From the IMG/VR virus record IMGVR_UViG_3300037502_001322, positions 39,676 through 103,675 of that record: a DNA stretch of 64,000 bases; one strand, given 5' to 3'. Of the stretch, positions 3,427-55,936 are shown piece after piece; the first letter of the stretch is position 1, and the number at the start of each line of letters is the position of its first letter. The DNA comes from a virus. Below the pieces are notes generated by a model. It saw only the letters and a list, made by a program, of their open reading frames with translations, made no database searches and had not been told where the DNA came from. The position numbers and the translations under genes are program-made.

Positions 3427-4101
3427 TTAAACCCACGTAGCTTCCCAAGTACCATCTAAGGGAAGTTCATAGTTAATATGTTCATAAACAAGATTACTGT
3501 AGGTAATTACCTCCGAAGTGACCCAATATATCCATGATGGGTTCACCGTAAAATTTAAAGGATAATTACCTCCTTCTTCTGTTGTTTTAACATTTACAAA
3601 AAGTTTTTCAGCAATTACGGAAGGAATTGGGTCAGCATCTGAAACACCTATATTAAGAACAACCGTCATTCTTGCTCTTAACTCTTTTTCAGCACCATCA
3701 AGAACAGTATCAGCTTTTGCTACAGAGGATACTTGTGAAACCCCTATCCCAAAATCAAGAAGATGTTTTCTCTTCAAATTGATGTGCTCAAAAGAATGAG
3801 TTATCTGCATTAATCTTGAAGTAGGTCTTCCTCTGAAGCTCATTACCTCTAAAAGGACTTCATACCAATTTATCGCAATCTGCCTATCCTGCGTATCCAA
3901 TTGGTCAGGATAAAAAGACCTTCCTGTACGATTAATATTAGTAACTTGAAGTCCTACATACTCTTCTTCGATTCGAGGCCAATCTCTGTCTAACAAGAAC
4001 ATCTTAACACCGGAAGGTGTCTCATCTGATATTGTTGCTTCTTTTATAAACAAACCCATTTGATTAAGTATGGTATCTTCTATATTATAAAATTCAGCCA
4101 T
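3427..4101 (-). CDS. Neck / tail terminator-like protein
   Basis: 224 residues just upstream of the sheath gene. The long N-terminal helix, the W-P-R-I-E-E-E-Y region and a beta-rich body resemble phage neck or tail-terminator proteins that cap the tube and join it to the head. The gene overlaps nothing and is 9 nt from its upstream neighbour, so it is probably co-translated. Identification is by length, order and general resemblance only. Confidence 0.5.
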   Translation of the reverse strand: MAEFYNIEDTILNQMGLFIKEATISDETPSGVKMFLLDRDWPRIEEEYVGLQVTNINRTGRSFYPDQLDTQDRQIAINWYEVLLEVMSFRGRPTSRLMQITHSFEHINLKRKHLLDFGIGVSQVSSVAKADTVLDGAEKELRARMTVVLNIGVSDADPIPSVIAEKLFVNVKTTEEGGNYPLNFTVNPSWIYWVTSEVITYSNLVYEHINYELPLDGTWEATWV

Positions 4102-4110
4102 AATTAATCC

Positions 4111-4512
4111 TTATTCATTATTAGGGTCTTTGACAACAACAGCATGATAATGCGGTATTAGCTGATTGTTCCATTTCTTAACACTAATGACTGTGAATAG
4201 GGAAACACCATTGACACCATCTATTTCCAACTGGTCAGAGATTTGATTTGTCCCTTCAACTGCAACAGTTATTGGAGTATTGGTAAAAACGTTATATGCT
4301 TCTTTTGCACGTAACCCCTCATCTAATACTTGTAACTGTTGTCCAGTTAGAGGTTGTACCGTGCAGCGTAATGCAGCAAAAGGTGTGGATGTTGTGCTCT
4401 CTAAGTCATTCTCAAAAACACCACCGGTTTCTTTTACAACAAACCTGTGATATCCTTGAAGTGTTATTCTTGGGATGAATCCGGAATTGCGGAGATAAGT
4501 GAATTGCAACAA
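4111..4512 (-). CDS. Small structural protein of the neck region
   Basis: 133 residues, beta-rich, ending in charged residues (VVVKDPNNE). Located between connector-type genes and the tail terminator-like gene, so it is likely a head-closure, collar or tail-completion protein. ATG at 4512 follows AGGAGG. I do not recognise a specific family. Confidence 0.45.
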   Translation of the reverse strand: MLQFTYLRNSGFIPRITLQGYHRFVVKETGGVFENDLESTTSTPFAALRCTVQPLTGQQLQVLDEGLRAKEAYNVFTNTPITVAVEGTNQISDQLEIDGVNGVSLFTVISVKKWNNQLIPHYHAVVVKDPNNE

Positions 4513-4617
4513 ACCTCCTAAAAGATTTCTAAAGATTTATTAAATTGATTATTGACTTATAATCTCAGGATATTAACTTAACTAAGTTTAACACAATAGT
4601 TAAACAAATTCAACAAT

Positions 4618-7288: not shown

Positions 7289-8638
7289 TTACTCTTTATA
7301 TTTGTAGTCCTCTGGATTCAAACCGTAGTTAGTTTTAATATAGTCGAGAATCTTGGGTAAATTTTTGACTTGAGTTGTTTCTGTGTACCCATCAGGCATT
7401 GTATTTTTAGTTACAAACTTAGTACCTACCAACTTCTTAATCTCACTCTCCAACTCTCGTATAAATCTTCCATCTGAAGATTTAAACTCATACAATATCC
7501 TTGGAACATATTTAGTGTACCTTCTCTGGTATGAAACCCTACCATTAACATCAAGGTTAGTTATTCCGTATTTTAAGAATGATAAGTTATCTTTATTCCA
7601 CACAACTAAGTACAACGAACCCGGTTTTATATTATTAAACCCTGCTTTTGCATGATTTGGACAGCCACTACCGTTCAAATGAGATGTAGCGGACTGTACA
7701 AAATATTCTGAACAAACTTTACAGTAAATCTCTACTTTATATTTAGCTTGTACGTATATTGTATTTGAGTAATCATACTCGTTATCTGGATGTACTTTCT
7801 TAGCTTTCATTATAAACTCTTCGATATTACTAAGAACTTGTTTCCTTTTAAATTCCTTTAAGCACAACGGGCAGCCTCCATTACCGCTAAGATGAAGGTG
7901 AGGTAGTTGCTCAAACTCATGGGAATGTTTATTACATATAATTTTAACTTTTGTCTTTGTATTAAGATATATAGCATTTCTATAATCATATTTATCACCG
8001 TGCATCTTTACAGCACGACTAATAAAAGACTCGATGTTTCCTCTACAAGAATCTTTTGCACATAAAGGACAGCCTGAACCAAGCAAGTGTTTATTGGGAG
8101 TCTGTAGGAATTCTCCGTGCAATTTACAAACTATAGCTACTTTAGTTGATACGTTTTTATAATCAACTTTAGAATAGTCATATTTGTTATTGTGTATCAC
8201 TGTAGCATCATTTGTAAAAGATTCTGCACTTCTTTTCTTACCGCAAGGATGGCACTTTTTATGATTTGCTCCTTTCAAATGAGAATTAGGAGTTTGCTCA
8301 AAATGTTCTTTACATTTATTACACCAAATAGTAACTTTTGTTCTGGTATTTTTATAGATCACTTCAGAATAATCATATTTACTCCCATGCTTTTTCTTTG
8401 CTTCCTCTATAAAACTTTCCTTATCTACAGCTTTGTACACGTCTCCACAGAGACGACAGCCACTCTTCCCATAAATGTGGCTTGAAGGTGTCTTCTCAAA
8501 GATAATATTGTGTTCAGGACATATTATTTTTACTTTAGTTATATTATTTTTGTACTCTACCAATGAGTAATCATACTTTCCTTTACCGTGAACTTCCTCG
8601 GCGTGTTTGATAAATTCTTCTTTTGTTTTTCTTGTCAC
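7289..8638 (-). CDS. Homing-type endonuclease: five zinc-ribbon repeats plus GIY-YIG-like domain
   Basis: 449 residues. Residues 1-335 are five tandem repeats of about 65 residues, each with a FI..A...H..KYDYS motif, a TKV.I.C turn and a C-x2-C pair at the end, like DUF723-type DNA-binding repeats of phage endonucleases. The C-terminal 110 residues contain LYLVVWNK, KYGITN, a conserved-looking Arg and a Glu in an RELESEI helix, the order of a GIY-YIG nuclease. It lies immediately downstream of the intron-bearing capsid gene and is bracketed by terminators, as expected for a free-standing homing gene. Confidence 0.65.
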   Translation of the reverse strand: MTRKTKEEFIKHAEEVHGKGKYDYSLVEYKNNITKVKIICPEHNIIFEKTPSSHIYGKSGCRLCGDVYKAVDKESFIEEAKKKHGSKYDYSEVIYKNTRTKVTIWCNKCKEHFEQTPNSHLKGANHKKCHPCGKKRSAESFTNDATVIHNNKYDYSKVDYKNVSTKVAIVCKLHGEFLQTPNKHLLGSGCPLCAKDSCRGNIESFISRAVKMHGDKYDYRNAIYLNTKTKVKIICNKHSHEFEQLPHLHLSGNGGCPLCLKEFKRKQVLSNIEEFIMKAKKVHPDNEYDYSNTIYVQAKYKVEIYCKVCSEYFVQSATSHLNGSGCPNHAKAGFNNIKPGSLYLVVWNKDNLSFLKYGITNLDVNGRVSYQRRYTKYVPRILYEFKSSDGRFIRELESEIKKLVGTKFVTKNTMPDGYTETTQVKNLPKILDYIKTNYGLNPEDYKYKE

Positions 8639-8725: not shown

Positions 8726-10025
8726 TTACACGAGCACTGCGGTACTGTGTACGATAACCTCCGGCTTCACAGGAACAGCAAGAACGGAAGTTTCGCTCTC
8801 CAGTCGGTAAGAACGGTTAAAACTATCTTCCTTATAAAGGAGAGTCAATTCTTGACCGGGCTGGTTAGCCATAGCAGCGTCATCTGCTGGAGCAAAGTAC
8901 AGACGGAACATATCATCGTTAGAGGAAACCCAAGGCATAACTACGGCCTTATCAGCATCCAAATAATCGTTGATAACTTCAATTATAAACAGACCTTTGT
9001 GGCTGAAAGTACGGTTGATAGCGTTACCACCCAGTCGCTTACGCAGAGGGTCTTGTTCACTGGAGTAATACTGGTATGCGGCCTGCACGATAGGATGCTG
9101 AATGAGCTTACTAAAGTAAGATTTACCAGCAAACATAACCAGTTGGTACTCAGTCATCATATCCTGAGCATTTACAGCAATGTGCTGACGAGCTTCTTCC
9201 AAAGTCTCAAAGGGGTCAGTGGTTGCATCAGTCAGATCAACACCAACCTGCTTCTTAGTAACACCAAAAGCGGTGTAGTAATCGTATGCAGGTGTCACAC
9301 CCTCACCTTCATAGGAAGTACCGTTGAAGATACAAGCAGACAGTACGCGCTCTTTCAGTTGAGCGTGCATACGGGTAATACGTTGCATGATGCGGATAAC
9401 TTCATCTTGCAGGGTTTTGGACTCATCACCAGAACCATACTTGCGAAAGTTCTGAATGTCTTCAGGTCGAATGTTACGCCTTTTATTCGAGTAAAGTCGC
9501 TACACTTTACCCCGTTCTCTTATGAACTGCTTATAGTTTCCTATAAGAGTAGACTATATCACGGTCTTCGATTAAAATCGTTAAGACCCCTACCACTTCG
9601 AACACCAATCGCTTGTGTTCTACTCCCACTCACGGGATAGTCGTTGAACCTTCTTCTCTGTGAGAAGCTTGGCTGCTGATTGCCCTCGTCTTGACCGATA
9701 CGTTAGGGGTTTCCAGCAATTCAATAGGTTTTCACTTAATCATTTCTGATAAAGGGGACTGCATTCAATCCAGAGGGAAAAACGGAACGTTGAAGTTCAC
9801 AGTTTGCGCGGTTTCAGAAGAAACGAAATTGCGCTCGCCGCCCCTACTACGTGCAGCAAACAAACCGTTAACTTCTTGAACACGTTCTACTTGGGCGACA
9901 GTAGTAGAAATATTATGAACACTGAACATATCCATACCGGTCAGCAGGGACCAAGTACGTGGCAGTAAATTGATCTCCGAACTATAATCCAAGAGCAGGA
10001 AATCGGATGCGCGGGTAGTTGCCAT
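8726..10025 (-). CDS. Major capsid protein (lambda gpE-like), interrupted by a group I intron
   Basis: Two exons: 10025-9768 (86 codons) and 9478-8726. Joined they encode 336 residues, close to lambda gpE (341). The junction reads ...PFFPLD then RNIRPEDIQ, matching the gpE segment where IPHLPHDD is followed by ILPEEVQ, so the splice restores a conserved core. Exon 1 ends in T and the intron ends in G, as group I splicing requires. Without splicing the first exon stops at TGA 9767-9765. The protein forms the icosahedral head lattice; the decoration gene lies upstream. Confidence 0.85.
9479..9767 (-). ncRNA. Group I intron in the major capsid gene (289 nt, no ORF)
   Basis: On the minus strand: 5' exon end GGAT pairs with an internal guide GTCC (U-G at the splice site) across an 8-nt loop; P-like AATTGCTGGAAA, Q-like AATCAGCAGCC, R-like GTTCAACGACTA and S-like GATATAGTCT follow in order. 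GACTA of R pairs with TAGTC of S (P7). The intron ends in G. It is too short for a homing endonuclease and shares its core with the two terminase introns. Confidence 0.88.
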
Positions 10026-14247: not shown

Positions 14248-16276
14248 TTAGAAGCTGCTCAACTTTGTCGGGCAGCTATAATCCGGAATAGCTAAGGCAG
14301 TGTGAACTTTAGATGCTGCAAGGAAGTTGAATGCTGAAGCCACAGCATCGGCCCAGTCATCGTGACGATGTGTTGAAGATCTTTCACCATCGAATGCTTC
14401 CAATTCTTTCATTAAGGCTTCATAGGTTTTAGGAGAAAATGTAGATTTAACTATTCTAACAAAACCTTGTTCTGCTGCACTTGCGAACGGTTCAAATCTC
14501 TTAAGTTTGGATTTGTTACCGGGGGTTGGGTCTTTCTTTACTGTATAACCTGTCTCTATTAAAGGTTTAGCAGAATTCTGAAACTCAGATAATCCAGAAG
14601 CACCGGGATCTACAGGAAACACTACAACAGTGTCTGAACCATCATATTCAGCTTGCTTCCTAATAGTGACATCCCTTTCCCCTACTGATTTGCAGAATCT
14701 ACCTCCTGTTTCAGTAACATCGTCATAATTGTCTGGGTGATGGTCGCCTGTAATATAATAGAAACCATCCCGGCATTTATACATCTTACAAGAAGCTGTG
14801 AAGTCTGGGTTTTTATAAGAGACTGTTCGTTCTTTGCCAGCTTTATCCCATGCCCTTACTGATTTACAATGAAGAGGAACTTTATCTACTTCTTTAAGAA
14901 ATTCTCGTTTGAAATATTTAGCACCTTTAGGTCTTGCATCCCAATTACCAAAAAGCAACTGAGCTTTATCTACTGGGTTAAGACCTTCAAGAAATGCAAG
15001 ATAATCAGGATTGCTTTCAAGCATTGGAGGATTATCATATATAAGAGCAGAAATAAACTGAAAGGATATAGGTCGGACATTATCACCGAATTTCTCTTTC
15101 AATTCTTCCGAAGAGTTACCCCAGAAAAACTCGCCATCTCTTGTTATAAACCATCTAACCTTTCCATCACGTTCTGGGTCAGGGAACCCTTCATCATCCA
15201 GATACCAATCAATCAGTTCTCGTATTTTATGATCTGGATCCGGGTTACAAGTTATAACCATGCGTGAAGGGTATTTAGAGTTGGACCTCAAGCGAGACAT
15301 CATATATTCTACATTGTGTTCATGAGTGGGCGCTACACCACTCACCGGGATAGACCCAGCTACATGTTTCCATATAGATCAGACTATATCATCACCTTCA
15401 GCACTATCTGTTCAGGTGTCGTGCGCTTCGAGTGTCAATCGCTTACACTCTACTCCCTTTCGGGATAGTCGTTGAACGTTCTTCTTAAATTAAGAAGCTT
15501 CGCTGCTGATTGCCTTCGTTTATCAACGTTAAGGTTTTCCAGCAATTCACACGATTTTCAATAACACATTTCTGTATTATGCAGCTAGTTTTAACTGAGA
15601 CCACTCAAACTGAGTACCTTCATCTACACCTATCAATGAAAACTGGGCACCTTGTATGTTATACTTATCAGACTCCCTCTCCATATGACTAAACTTTTGT
15701 TTAGCCCCAGATGGCCATATAAACTCAAGAGCTTTTTCTCTAGCTCTTGGTCTTTGGTTTAGAGGTAACTGCATATAAATACTTTTAGCTGTATCCCATA
15801 TCCCTCCTCCAGATGTAATTTGAGGTGTTGTCCTGCGAAACATTATAATGTTAGTGTTAGGGTCATCTACTATAAAAAGAGGTAAAAGTTGTAGCAAGTA
15901 GGATTTACCTGACAGATGTTCAGATTGAGTCGTTAATTCAACCCCGCACCTTTATGTGCTGCTATGCATTTCTGCACAGTTCAGACTATATCATCAACCT
16001 AAACTGAGGTTGCCTCCCGTTTCGAATTCACTTGAACCCTACACCTTACGGTTAGTCGTTGAACCTTCTTCTCATAGAGAAGCTTGGCTGCTGATCGGCT
16101 TAGCTTAAGTTATTAAACCTTAGCGTTCCAGCAATTAAAGAGGTTATTCAATCAGTGTCACCACTGAAGGCGGCCCGTTAACCGGCGGCACCACCTGCTA
16201 CAAGTATTTGTGCTGTAGAATTAAGAATCATTTCCTGCTTCTTGGAAGCAGGGGCAAATAAAGGTTGATTACTCAT
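14248..16276 (-). CDS. Terminase large subunit, three exons split by two group I introns
   Basis: Exons 16276-16181, 15912-15594 and 15311-14248 join in frame to 492 residues. The first join rebuilds the Walker A loop (GGAAG then SGKSYLLQ). Exon 2 holds Walker B (FSLIGVDEGTQFEW), and the second join gives WSQLEYMMSRL. Exon 3 has a motif III-like ITCNPD and the nuclease domain with Asp residues (RAWDKAG, VFPVDPGASG, RHDDWADA). The enzyme drives ATP-dependent DNA packaging and cuts concatemers. The start has GAGAGG 5 nt upstream. Unspliced message ends after 32 codons. Confidence 0.88.
15312..15593 (-). ncRNA. Group I intron 2 of the terminase gene (282 nt, no ORF)
   Basis: Exon end CAGT pairs with guide GCTG across an 8-nt loop; the core elements AATTGCTGGAAA, AATCAGCAGC, GTTCAACGACTA and GATATAGTCT occur in order and closely match the capsid intron. 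The intron ends in G at 15312, restoring a TTA codon split between exons. It is inserted just downstream of the Walker B coding region. Confidence 0.87.
15913..16180 (-). ncRNA. Group I intron 1 of the terminase gene (268 nt, no ORF)
   Basis: Exon end CGGT pairs with GCCG; the core repeats the same P, Q, R, S series with GATCAGCAGCC and ATATAGTCTG. The insertion point is inside the P-loop codons, between GGAAG and SGKS. It ends in G at 15913. It is the shortest and most diverged of the three related introns. Confidence 0.87.
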
Positions 16277-19623: not shown

Positions 19624-20073
19624 TTACTTTTTATACCTAAACCTATTAGCGCAACTGATTGAACAGAAAGGGCCATTATTACTTCTAGAATATTTTTGGT
19701 CCTTACTTAGTACAAATTCTTTTCCACAATAACAACAAGGTTTGATTACATCAGGACTTCTTTTTCTGACCCGCTTAGAACCCTTTGATATATAAAAAAG
19801 ACACTGGTCTTTTTTAGAAACTACTTTTAAATTCTGAATATCGAAATTATCTAAATTTCCATCAAGATGCACCACACCTTCACTGTTTTTAAGTTTTCTT
19901 TGTAAGAAACTTTCTACTATAGCTTTAGAATAGGACACCTGTTTATTCTTCTTAGGGGAAGAATAAAGGTATACATAAACCCAACCATCAGACCTTTTAT
20001 AGGGACCGCTTACAGATTTATATTCAGGCCACAGCTCTAAAAGGTCTTCAACTATAACCAGATTTTCCATCAC
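19624..20073 (-). CDS. HNH-type homing endonuclease-like protein
   Basis: 149 residues. HLDGNLDNFDIQNLKVV at residues 68-85 fits the H-x-D/N...N...N core of phage HNH nucleases, and the C-terminus carries a zinc-binding pair set (CCYCGKEF ... FCSISCANRF). The first conserved His (VVHLD) is present, but the classical second His-Asn pair is not obvious. It sits between unrelated small genes, typical of a free-standing selfish gene. Confidence 0.55.
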   Translation of the reverse strand: MMENLVIVEDLLELWPEYKSVSGPYKRSDGWVYVYLYSSPKKNKQVSYSKAIVESFLQRKLKNSEGVVHLDGNLDNFDIQNLKVVSKKDQCLFYISKGSKRVRKRSPDVIKPCCYCGKEFVLSKDQKYSRSNNGPFCSISCANRFRYKK

Positions 20074-37972: not shown

Positions 37973-40210
37973 ATGATTAAAACCGTAATCAAACGGGACG
38001 GAAGTAAAGAACCTTTTCAAGCTGAAAAGCTTAACCGATGGGCTGAATATGCAACAAAAATGGGAGGAAGTTGGTCTGAGATAGCTCAAAAAACATTCAA
38101 ACGACTGACAGATCCGTGTACATCTAAAGACATCCACGATATTATGGTTGACGTTTGTCTTGAAAAGCAAACAATGGAATATAGTCGAATTGCTGCTCGA
38201 CTTGAGTTTGCAGAAATTAGAAAAGGCATGCAACATATTTTTGGTGTTGATGATAATAATAGTTTCAAGGAGATTTTCGATAAACTTATTGGTCATGGTT
38301 TGTGGGACAAGTCCTCACTTCCTGAATATAATGTTCTATGGGAAGACTGGTATCAAGAATTACGGCAAACAAGGATGGAATATTGGCAAATTAAACAGTG
38401 GGCGGATAAGTATGCTGTACGACATAATGATGTTGTAGTAGAAACTCCTCATATAGGATTGATGGGGATCGCTTTAGCACTTTACGGAGATACTCAAGAA
38501 TCTTTCGATTATGCTAAAGCTCTTGTTGAAGGTAAAGTGAATCTACCTACCCCCGCCCTGAATGGTTTGCGTAACGGAGACTGGGACACTATTAGCTGCT
38601 GTGTTATTAGTGGTGGAGATACTGTAGACAGTATTGGTGTAGCGGATTATCTAGCATATCGTATGACTGCGAAAAAGAGTGGGATTGGTATTGAATTTAC
38701 TACACGATCTAAAGGAGACAGTGTTAAAAATGGAAGGGTTAAGCACTTAGGGAAGTGGAATATCTATAAGATGGTAGACCGTTCGGTGAAAGCAATGACT
38801 CAGGTTACGCGAGGAGGCAACGCCACAGTCACAGTTCTTGCAATTGATCCAGAGATTGAGAATATCTTATTTTGGAAATCACAACGGGTAGACATAGAGC
38901 AACGTATAGATAAATTAGATTACGAATTTGGATATAATGACGCATTCTTTCAGGCTGTAGTAAAGAATGAACCTTGGTACCTTTTCGGACTAACTGACGC
39001 ACCTGATTTATATGATCTATTCTATTATGCTAAAGCTGATACTTATAATGAAGCAGTTAATAATCACTTAAATAAAGGAACAAAACATAAAAAAATAAGT
39101 GCCAGAGACCTTCTTTCTAAGTTCCTAACGGTGAGGCAAGAAACAGGAAGATTCTATGACCATAACTTGACACGTACAAACGAACATACACCTTTCACTG
39201 ATATTATTAGGCAAAGTAATCTTTGCGAAGAGATCTGTCTGCCTACTAAACCGTATGAAAGTATGCAAGACCTTCTTTCAGAACAATCTATAGGTGAAAC
39301 AGCATTTTGTTCTTTGAGTGCACTAAACGTTGCCAAAATCTCTTTTGAAGAATATGATCGTGTGGCGTACCTTGCATTAAAAGCTGTTGATATTATGATT
39401 GATAAAGCTCCTATGCTCACTAAATCTATGAAGAATTCTATTATGGACCGACGTTCAGTTGGTATTGGTATCACAGGAATGGCAAGTGCATTATACAAGA
39501 ATGGTTTTGACTACGATGGCAGTAAAGGCTCTTTAGATTTTGTACAAAAAATAGCAGAATATCATTACTACTATTTACTCAAGGCTAGCCAGAAAATGAG
39601 TGAAGAAGATGGTATTGTGGTTAAGGGTGTTAAAAAGGATTGGTTACCTATTGACACTGCTATAAACAAAAGTGTAACAGATTTGGATTGGGAAAGTATT
39701 AGGGGTAAAGGACGGAAACATAGTGTATTGGTTGCGCATATGCCGACGGAAGCAAGTTCACTACTAAGCGGATCAGCCAACTCGTTGTATCCTTTACGGA
39801 AAAAAGTAATTAACAAACGTAGTCGTAAAGGATTAGTGCAATTCATTTGCGAAGAATTCGACGAAGCTAAACACAAAACTGCGTGGGATGTAGATAATAT
39901 TTGTCTATCTAAGTATTATGCCCGTGTTCAAGATTTTACAGACCAAGCTATTAGTTGTGATTTTTATGTAGTACCAAGTAAATACCCCGGTGGAAAGGTG
40001 AGCATGGCTCAATTGATGAAGGAATGGGTTGCTCATTCACAATTAGGAAATAAAACAAAGTATTACTTGAACACTAACGATAGTAATGGTGGTTCAATAC
40101 AAGATATTAAGCGTACAACAACCAAAAGTAATTTTAATACTACAACACCCAATACTGTGATTAATGAAGTAGAAGAAGAGGAAGATGGTTGCGAGAGTTG
40201 CAAGTTATAA
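37973..40210 (+). CDS. nrdA: Ribonucleoside-diphosphate reductase, alpha subunit (class I)
   Basis: 745 residues. N-terminal ATP-cone (KTVIKRDGSKEPFQAEK), active-site Cys in ISCCVISGGD, thiyl radical Cys in SNLCEEICLPT, partner Cys in FCSLSALN, and the C-terminal redox pair CESCKL. It reduces NDPs to dNDPs with NrdB. The near-Asp/Glu-rich tail before CESC is normal. Followed by nrdB and a glutaredoxin in one cluster. Confidence 0.9.
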   Translation: MIKTVIKRDGSKEPFQAEKLNRWAEYATKMGGSWSEIAQKTFKRLTDPCTSKDIHDIMVDVCLEKQTMEYSRIAARLEFAEIRKGMQHIFGVDDNNSFKEIFDKLIGHGLWDKSSLPEYNVLWEDWYQELRQTRMEYWQIKQWADKYAVRHNDVVVETPHIGLMGIALALYGDTQESFDYAKALVEGKVNLPTPALNGLRNGDWDTISCCVISGGDTVDSIGVADYLAYRMTAKKSGIGIEFTTRSKGDSVKNGRVKHLGKWNIYKMVDRSVKAMTQVTRGGNATVTVLAIDPEIENILFWKSQRVDIEQRIDKLDYEFGYNDAFFQAVVKNEPWYLFGLTDAPDLYDLFYYAKADTYNEAVNNHLNKGTKHKKISARDLLSKFLTVRQETGRFYDHNLTRTNEHTPFTDIIRQSNLCEEICLPTKPYESMQDLLSEQSIGETAFCSLSALNVAKISFEEYDRVAYLALKAVDIMIDKAPMLTKSMKNSIMDRRSVGIGITGMASALYKNGFDYDGSKGSLDFVQKIAEYHYYYLLKASQKMSEEDGIVVKGVKKDWLPIDTAINKSVTDLDWESIRGKGRKHSVLVAHMPTEASSLLSGSANSLYPLRKKVINKRSRKGLVQFICEEFDEAKHKTAWDVDNICLSKYYARVQDFTDQAISCDFYVVPSKYPGGKVSMAQLMKEWVAHSQLGNKTKYYLNTNDSNGGSIQDIKRTTTKSNFNTTTPNTVINEVEEEEDGCESCKL

Positions 40211-44470: not shown

Positions 44471-45262
44471 ATGAGAACTAATAAATACAATGTAGTAGAG
44501 GGAGAAAAGTATGAAAGTAATTACTGTGGATGGTTTGAAGTAATAAAATACAATAGTTCTACTGATGTGGATATTAGGTTTTGTTATTCAGGTTATAAAA
44601 GAAAAACTACAGTCAATTACATAAAGAAAGGTGTGGTATACGACCCTTATTACCCTAAAGTGAAGGGTGTTGGTTTCATAGGTGAAGGGATACATAAGCC
44701 GAAGATAAATGGTAAGATGAGTAAATGTCATTCTGTTTGGTTTCAAATGCTCCGCAGGTGTTATGACAGTGAATATAAAAGTTACGAAGGGTATGGATCA
44801 AAAGGAGTGACTGTTTGTGAAGATTGGCATAACTATCAAAATTTTGCTGAATGGTATTATGCTAATCATAAAGAAGGTTTAGCTATTGATAAAGATATTC
44901 TACGAAGAGGAAATAAAATATATGGGCCTGAATTCTGCAGGTTTGTTCCAGTAAGGATTAACAGTCTACTGACTCCAAGATCCAAATGTAGAGGAGATTT
45001 ACCTATTGGTGTTCATAGGAGAAAGAATAGTTCAGGAGAGGTTGTAAGTTATGTTGCTTCTATATCGGGAGGTACAACTACTTCAGTAATTTTCCTTGGA
45101 CATCACAAAACCCCTGAACTTGCTTTTGAAGCTTATAAAGAAACTAAATTAAAACATATAAAAGAAGTAGCGTCTGAAGAATTTCTTGCAGGGAATATAA
45201 CTGAAGATATTTATCATGCACTACTTAACTGGGAAGTGGTACCTTATCCAGAGAAGCTATGA
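44471..45262 (+). CDS. HNH-type homing endonuclease with AP2-like region
   Basis: 263 residues. MLRRCYDSEYKSYEGYGSKGVTVCEDW with FAEWYYANHKEGLAIDKD is the characteristic core of a phage HNH homing enzyme family, and GVHRRKNSSGEVVSYVASI near 190 looks AP2-like (DNA binding). It follows phoH after a short gap; insertion of such a gene between phage genes is common. Activity is inferred. Confidence 0.65.
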   Translation: MRTNKYNVVEGEKYESNYCGWFEVIKYNSSTDVDIRFCYSGYKRKTTVNYIKKGVVYDPYYPKVKGVGFIGEGIHKPKINGKMSKCHSVWFQMLRRCYDSEYKSYEGYGSKGVTVCEDWHNYQNFAEWYYANHKEGLAIDKDILRRGNKIYGPEFCRFVPVRINSLLTPRSKCRGDLPIGVHRRKNSSGEVVSYVASISGGTTTSVIFLGHHKTPELAFEAYKETKLKHIKEVASEEFLAGNITEDIYHALLNWEVVPYPEKL

Positions 45263-54757: not shown

Positions 54758-55936
54758 ATGAAAAACAATGGTGTGGAGAAGTGGACTGAAGTAGTTGAAG
54801 AGGGTTTTGAGGGAAGGTATATGATTAGTAACTTCTCTAGGGTATATGACACTAAAACTGAGAAGTTTGTTGCTCAAGTTCTGACAGGTAATCCGAGCTA
54901 CTGGTATGCTAACTTATCTCCAACACAAGAAGGGTTTAGGCGCAAGTTGTTCAGAGTGCACAGACTTATGATGTTGTCTTGGGAACCTATAGATTCTCCA
55001 GAAAGTTTTGTGGTTGATCATATAGATATTAACCCTTATAACAACTCATTGTATAATCTCAGATGGGTAACCAAACGGCAAAACACAAATAATTCCAGAT
55101 GTACGGTTTATGTAGACTACAAAGGAATATCTACTCCACTCTCTTATGCTGTAGAGCAAGAACTGGGAAGCAATTATAAAACAGGTTTAATTTCTATTTA
55201 CTCTAAAATCGTAGAGAAAGGCATGACGTTCAGTGCGGCTATAGCAGACTATAAAGCTTATCTTAACGGAGATAAGGAAATCAAAATCACACACCAACAC
55301 AAAGAACACAACCTGAAGGATTTCTGTGAGCAGTATGAGTTAGATTACAAACTGTCAAAATCGAGATTGGATTATGGATGGAAGTCTCACGAAATATTGT
55401 CAGGATACTCTGATTTTAAAGGTGAGGGGTATAGCTTCTACGTCGAAGAACAAGAAAAAGGGATGTGGTTTCCTAATAAAGCTAGTCTTCTTAGGTACGT
55501 TGGGACTCCTCATTCTGATAAAATTGCAGGAGATGTAAATGAAGACAAACTAAAGGAATTGTATGTCAAGCACGTAATACACAAAGGTAGAGAGTTTAAG
55601 CATATAGTTATAAATAATCACCAATACACTTACTATAATATTAACCATCTACTAGAGCAAATTGGGATCAGTAGAGGAAGATTTGACGCTGTTAATGATG
55701 TATGTAAAGACTTATGTCAGACCATCACTGAATGTCTTAATACTAAACCAAGCAGAATCAGGTTTGTTGAACTGGACGGTGTATATATGTCAGTAAAAGA
55801 TTTATACACTCACTTCGGGATAAACCCTAAAGCCGCTAATAACTTAAAGTCAAAGAACAGATTAACAATAGAACAAACACTACAACGATATGGTGTTGAT
55901 ACTAACAGTATAGAAATAAAAGAAGCCACTAAATAA
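54758..55936 (+). CDS. NUMOD4-HNH homing endonuclease
   Basis: 392 residues. EKWTEVVEEGFEGRYMISNFSRV is NUMOD4-like; the HNH core follows as HRLMMLSWEP, FVVDHIDINPYNNSLYNLRWVT (D-H ... N ... N); later blocks (SLLRYVGTPH, SVKDLYTHFG) look like NUMOD1 DNA-binding repeats. A free-standing homing gene with its own promoter and terminator. Confidence 0.8.
   Translation: MKNNGVEKWTEVVEEGFEGRYMISNFSRVYDTKTEKFVAQVLTGNPSYWYANLSPTQEGFRRKLFRVHRLMMLSWEPIDSPESFVVDHIDINPYNNSLYNLRWVTKRQNTNNSRCTVYVDYKGISTPLSYAVEQELGSNYKTGLISIYSKIVEKGMTFSAAIADYKAYLNGDKEIKITHQHKEHNLKDFCEQYELDYKLSKSRLDYGWKSHEILSGYSDFKGEGYSFYVEEQEKGMWFPNKASLLRYVGTPHSDKIAGDVNEDKLKELYVKHVIHKGREFKHIVINNHQYTYYNINHLLEQIGISRGRFDAVNDVCKDLCQTITECLNTKPSRIRFVELDGVYMSVKDLYTHFGINPKAANNLKSKNRLTIEQTLQRYGVDTNSIEIKEATK

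Follow-up and report, generated by a model that had tools for sequence, protein, structure and literature searches.

A phage terminase gene probably interrupted by two group I introns, one within Walker A at a boundary shared with apparent inteins

How could a complete packaging ATPase be made from a terminase gene whose reading frame is broken twice, once inside the Walker A motif? The question is raised by IMGVR_UViG_3300037502_001322, a virus known solely as a metagenomic record of 103,675 bases, part of which (positions 39,676 to 103,675; 64,000 nucleotides) was analyzed here and is referred to as the window. The terminase gene, terL, lies on the minus strand, with its ATG at 16276 and its stop codon at 14248; when 268 nt (16180-15913) and 282 nt (15593-15312) are taken out, it encodes a Terminase_6 protein of 492 amino acids. 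An earlier note on this DNA had given the same coordinates, insert lengths and product, and all are exact. The gene is laid out as follows.

terL exon 1: 16181..16276, minus strand; residues 1-32, ending in GGAAG, the N-terminal half of Walker A, with U as its final base; from sequence and translation, with the same residues in intronless relatives.
terL intron 1: 15913..16180, minus strand; group I, 268 nt, starting with TAA (an in-frame stop) and ending in G; phase 0, between Gly32 and Ser33; RF00028 score 92.8 bits.
terL exon 2: 15594..15912, minus strand; 319 nt, opening with SGKS, closing at the first base of codon 139 and containing the Walker B DEG.
terL intron 2: 15312..15593, minus strand; group I, 282 nt, ending in G; P1 of CAGU with GCUG, P10 of CUA with UAG; RF00028 score 103.4 bits; covariation.
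terL exon 3: 14248..15311, minus strand; nuclease domain, PF17289 (Terminase_6C).

Profile searches recover both the ATPase (Terminase_6N, PF03237, 84.5 bits) and the nuclease (Terminase_6C, PF17289, 43.3 bits) in the spliced protein, which aligns in one piece with the intronless terminases of Vequintavirinae at 62-64% identity over 98-99% of the length. Against the terminase of Cronobacter phage CR8, likewise intronless (63% identity), there is no gap at either junction, where CR8 carries the residues AQILVMGGAAGSGKSYLLQ and DEGTQFEWEQLEYMMSRLRS, and at both junctions the spliced protein has the residues expected from intronless relatives. A search of IMG/VR, in which the nearest terL was 63% identical, returned no close relative with or without the introns of the window. 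The first insertion splits Walker A between GGAAG and SGKS, as the earlier note had described and as sequence and translation bear out, while the second interrupts codon 139 after its first base, seven full codons past the Walker B DEG (residues 129-131) and not ten as had been counted. Of the two introns that had been placed at ATPase motif sites, intron 1 lies in Walker A, and intron 2 is close to Walker B yet outside any catalytic motif.

A search with the Rfam group I intron model (RF00028, gathering score 50 bits), as the earlier note had proposed, matches both inserts along their full length and over model positions 1-253, with E values (1.5e-22 for intron 1 and 9.8e-26 for intron 2) that exclude chance. 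When 38 related introns were aligned, 89-100% of the cells in helices P3, P4, P7, P8 and P9 proved to be paired, compared with at most 57% when one strand was slid by 1 or 2 columns as a control, and most of these pairs show changes on both sides, that is, covariation. P7 is paired in all 190 of its cells and P3 in 89% of 266; the guanosine-binding helix P7 crosses P3 in a pseudoknot that is absent from Rfam's nested structure. By reading, both inserts have a U at the end of the upstream exon, a P1 guide helix with a U-G pair at the predicted 5' site, and a terminal G. The splice sites (junctions marked by slashes) are GGU/UAA...CUG/UCA for intron 1, with a P1 of CGGU paired with GCCG and a weak P10 of only two pairs, and CAGU/UAA...AUG/UAG for intron 2, whose P10 has three pairs. 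Single-sequence folding gives a clear gain over shuffles for intron 2 (z -4.26) and a modest one for intron 1 (z -2.05), the latter as expected because the fold model leaves out the pseudoknot.

Subgroup IA2 of the group I introns is marked by two helices, P7.1 and P7.2, which follow P7 and precede the 3' strand of P3. Defined on intron 2, they are paired in 87% and 77% of cells, respectively, over the intron set, and this layout places the terL introns in the IA2 type. Neither contains an endonuclease gene, the longest stop-free stretch in any frame being 59 codons, and they therefore lack the internal endonuclease that marks a mobile (homing) group I intron. That the window terL inserts might themselves be inteins is ruled out by their in-frame stops and by lengths of 268 and 282 nt, which give no continuous frame. 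The earlier note's reading of both inserts as group I introns is supported by the covariance model, by the P3/P7 pseudoknot of the core, by the splice-site rules and by relatives without introns, and on this sequence evidence terL is very probably split by two small introns of IA2 layout that are both spliced out to make the packaging ATPase.

Translation of unspliced terL RNA would end at the first intron codon (codon 33), after residue 32, and with intron 1 alone removed a stop follows after 143 codons; exon 1 joined to exon 3 stops immediately because exon 3 begins with TAG. From the first two of these stops it follows by inference, as the earlier note had claimed, that DNA packaging would depend on RNA splicing, and the 492-residue packaging ATPase would be encoded by doubly spliced RNA only. 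For splicing we infer this course: the intron RNA would fold into a P3-P8 ribozyme, and a guanosine would attack behind the U at the end of the upstream exon, which forms a U-G wobble in P1; the exon so released would then attack behind the terminal G of the intron, joining the exons. The in-frame stops at the intron starts would block an unspliced product and would probably keep ribosomes off the ribozyme; early in-frame stops have been viewed as a cause of ribosome stalling that lets the intron fold (PMC3984707). The introns probably came by homing into the gene's best-conserved DNA, driven by an endonuclease since lost or encoded elsewhere.

Two introns in one packaging gene had been called striking, which overstates the case: both terL genes with two or three introns and P-loop introns of group I have been published or recur (rV5, CB7, ICP1, Bastillevirinae), and a two-intron terL with a P-loop insertion is an arrangement already known, and spliced, in other phages. 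The terL of Escherichia phage rV5 was described in 2013 as lying in three segments, with LL-H (1995) the sole other case known to its authors (PMC3606486), and the rV5 GenBank entry gives the gene as a join of three exons. Like the phage studied here, rV5 and its relatives (L017, L024), members of the closest isolated phage subfamily, have three terL exons and two group I introns (PMC3606486), but their sites fall at codons 131/132 and 229/230 and one rV5 segment has an HNH endonuclease. CB7, a Certrevirus, and phiTE (L016) share an insertion shortly after Walker B, at codon 129/130, although theirs is a single 969-nt intron with an HNH gene; splicing of the CB7 intron was demonstrated by RT-PCR and sequencing (PMC7344957). 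In Bastillevirinae, terL may have up to three group I introns, and those of phiAGATE and SIOphi are spliced in infected cells; these are, however, phages of Firmicutes, whose introns average 802 bases across the entire survey and often carry endonucleases (PMC11878797).

ICP1 offers a close likeness at the P-loop. Its terL intron, for which splicing was established by RNA-seq and RT-PCR, is accompanied by three introns in the tape-measure gene (Barth et al., 2023; PMC10448857). Our reading of ICP1 DNA (L037) places it within Walker A, between GGA and AGGGKS at codon 30/31. Like intron 1 of the window it is a small, endonuclease-free intron of group I type in Walker A of a homologous terL, in a phage that also has a split tape-measure gene; it differs in lying two codons upstream, in being the only intron of its terL, in belonging to a separate intron clade, and in having a free-standing T5orf172 endonuclease adjoining terL, an arrangement for which collaborative homing has been discussed (PMC10448857). 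By analogy, the splicing of homologous terL introns in ICP1, CB7, phiAGATE and SIOphi supports splicing of those in the window.

P-loop insertions occur in many terminases of our IMG/VR scan, and several (L073, L074, L080 and L116) have a second insertion just past Walker B. In the intron tree, most P-loop introns at codons 29/30 and 30/31 group in a supported clade (8 rows, 97/99) that excludes intron 1, which is placed with a separate set of phage introns. Inheritance of intron 1 from the common P-loop intron is therefore disfavoured, and the intron at codon 32/33 looks like an independent insertion a few bases away. A 940-nt terL insertion at codon 108/109 (L006 858-1797, L007 7061-8000) follows the group I intron rules of a U before it and a G at its end; the L006 copy was not matched by Rfam at the gathering score. 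In Rheinheimera phage Barba35A (L036 2264-2500), terL is annotated as starting late, with the true exon 1 ahead of a probable P-loop intron (codon 29/30). The terminase matched 115 records of Rheinheimera phages, many of which may be misannotated.

The terminase, the subject of the earlier note, is not the only late gene of this genome that is interrupted. The major capsid gene of the window and its neighbor comprise the following features.

Major capsid gene exon 1: 9768..10025, minus strand; the spliced 336-aa product matches Phage_cap_E (E = 9.5e-45).
Capsid intron, the third group I intron of the window: 9479..9767, minus strand; 289 nt, starting with TGA; RF00028 score 88.9 bits.
Major capsid gene exon 2: 8726..9478, minus strand; intronless relatives align across the junction.
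Free-standing homing-type endonuclease gene: 7289..8638, minus strand; phrog_681 endonuclease (E = 1.6e-100) with DUF4379 zinc fingers, directly after the split capsid gene.

The spliced capsid protein, a homologue of capsid protein E, aligns in one piece with intronless capsid relatives; no endonuclease gene lies inside the capsid intron, and an IMG/VR search with the protein found no relative. A capsid intron is known from cluster J mycobacteriophages (PMC3706429). Just ahead of the window, the tape-measure gene (L033 7652-8817) is apparently interrupted by two group I introns that flank a short exon; one of the two introns holds an HNH endonuclease gene and was called by reading its conserved 3' half and not by Rfam. 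In the stretches of the genome that were read, group I introns number at least five and are spread over three late genes: terL and the tape-measure gene have two each, and the major capsid gene has one. In the intron tree, the four of them that can be aligned need three changes, but a single clade is not rejected (p-AU 0.29); they may have been copied from each other or may have arrived separately. No endonuclease gene adjoins terL in the window, and the gene at 7289-8638 is a candidate partner for collaborative homing, in an arrangement resembling the ICP1 terL case. Three more HNH-type endonuclease genes, all free-standing, lie at 19624-20073, 44471-45262 and 54758-55936.

The confinement of every intron found to late morphogenesis genes (terL, capsid, tape measure) would fit retention of the introns as timers of late gene expression rather than as selfish elements, and Weglewska and colleagues have proposed that introns are 'molecular on-switches' (PMC11878797). 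The patchy occurrence in relatives and the shifting sites instead fit selfish spread, and we regard such a regulatory role as unlikely. Far less probable is that the inserts stay unspliced and TerL acts as separate peptides, in the manner of NrdA in Aeromonas phage Aeh1: non-splicing, HNH-bearing insertions are known there and in one case in CB7 (PMC7344957), but in the window the first cut lies within Walker A, leaving no peptide with an entire P-loop, and there would be no reason for intact ribozyme cores and splice sites to persist. Decay of terL or an artefact of assembly, which the metagenomic origin of the record might suggest, is barely credible for three exons that are all open and 63% identical to relatives over their full length, with inserts that are complete ribozymes with correct ends and a pattern that recurs in unrelated assemblies and isolates.

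The boundary that intron 1 occupies, between Gly32 and Ser33, is also the exact site of apparent inteins in three related terminases, those of phages TH18 and phi1_175008 and of the IMG/VR sequence L102. These elements share the codon boundary with intron 1 but differ in being removed as protein; they are not RNA introns. They are in frame and free of stops, with Cys first and Gly-Asn before the Ser, and their excision restores Walker A. Intein profiles matched them below threshold (PF14890, E 0.033; AceL NrdHF intein, E 0.38), and the call therefore rests on the terminal residues and the exact in-frame excision. TerL inteins also occur in mycobacteriophages (PMC5050341). A literature search of incomplete coverage turned up no terL boundary reported to be used by a group I intron and by inteins alike. 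A conceivable but improbable account is that inteins and a group I intron of another lineage than the usual P-loop introns entered this boundary independently, through related homing endonucleases that share a conserved target sequence and have switched between protein and RNA as their splicing partner. Other mixed cases were seen: terL of Escherichia phage TH18 (L018 921-4634) has two insertions besides its apparent Walker A intein, one with an HNH gene, and an IMG/VR terL (L100, ~4001-4522) combines an apparent intein between Lys35 and Ser36 with a group I intron near codon 121.

One practical consequence is that, in such phages, terminase and capsid genes will come out of automatic annotation split or truncated. 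Taken as a whole, this tailed phage adds a clean example of self-splicing introns in essential phage genes, with three late morphogenesis targets, the packaging motor, the capsid and the tape measure, in one genome; in the Bastillevirinae survey, introns were found in genes of DNA and nucleotide metabolism and in terL only (PMC11878797). Known biology explains the terL introns well, and what is less expected here is the number of late genes affected and the boundary common to intron and inteins, which makes testable why two unrelated kinds of element choose identical bases.
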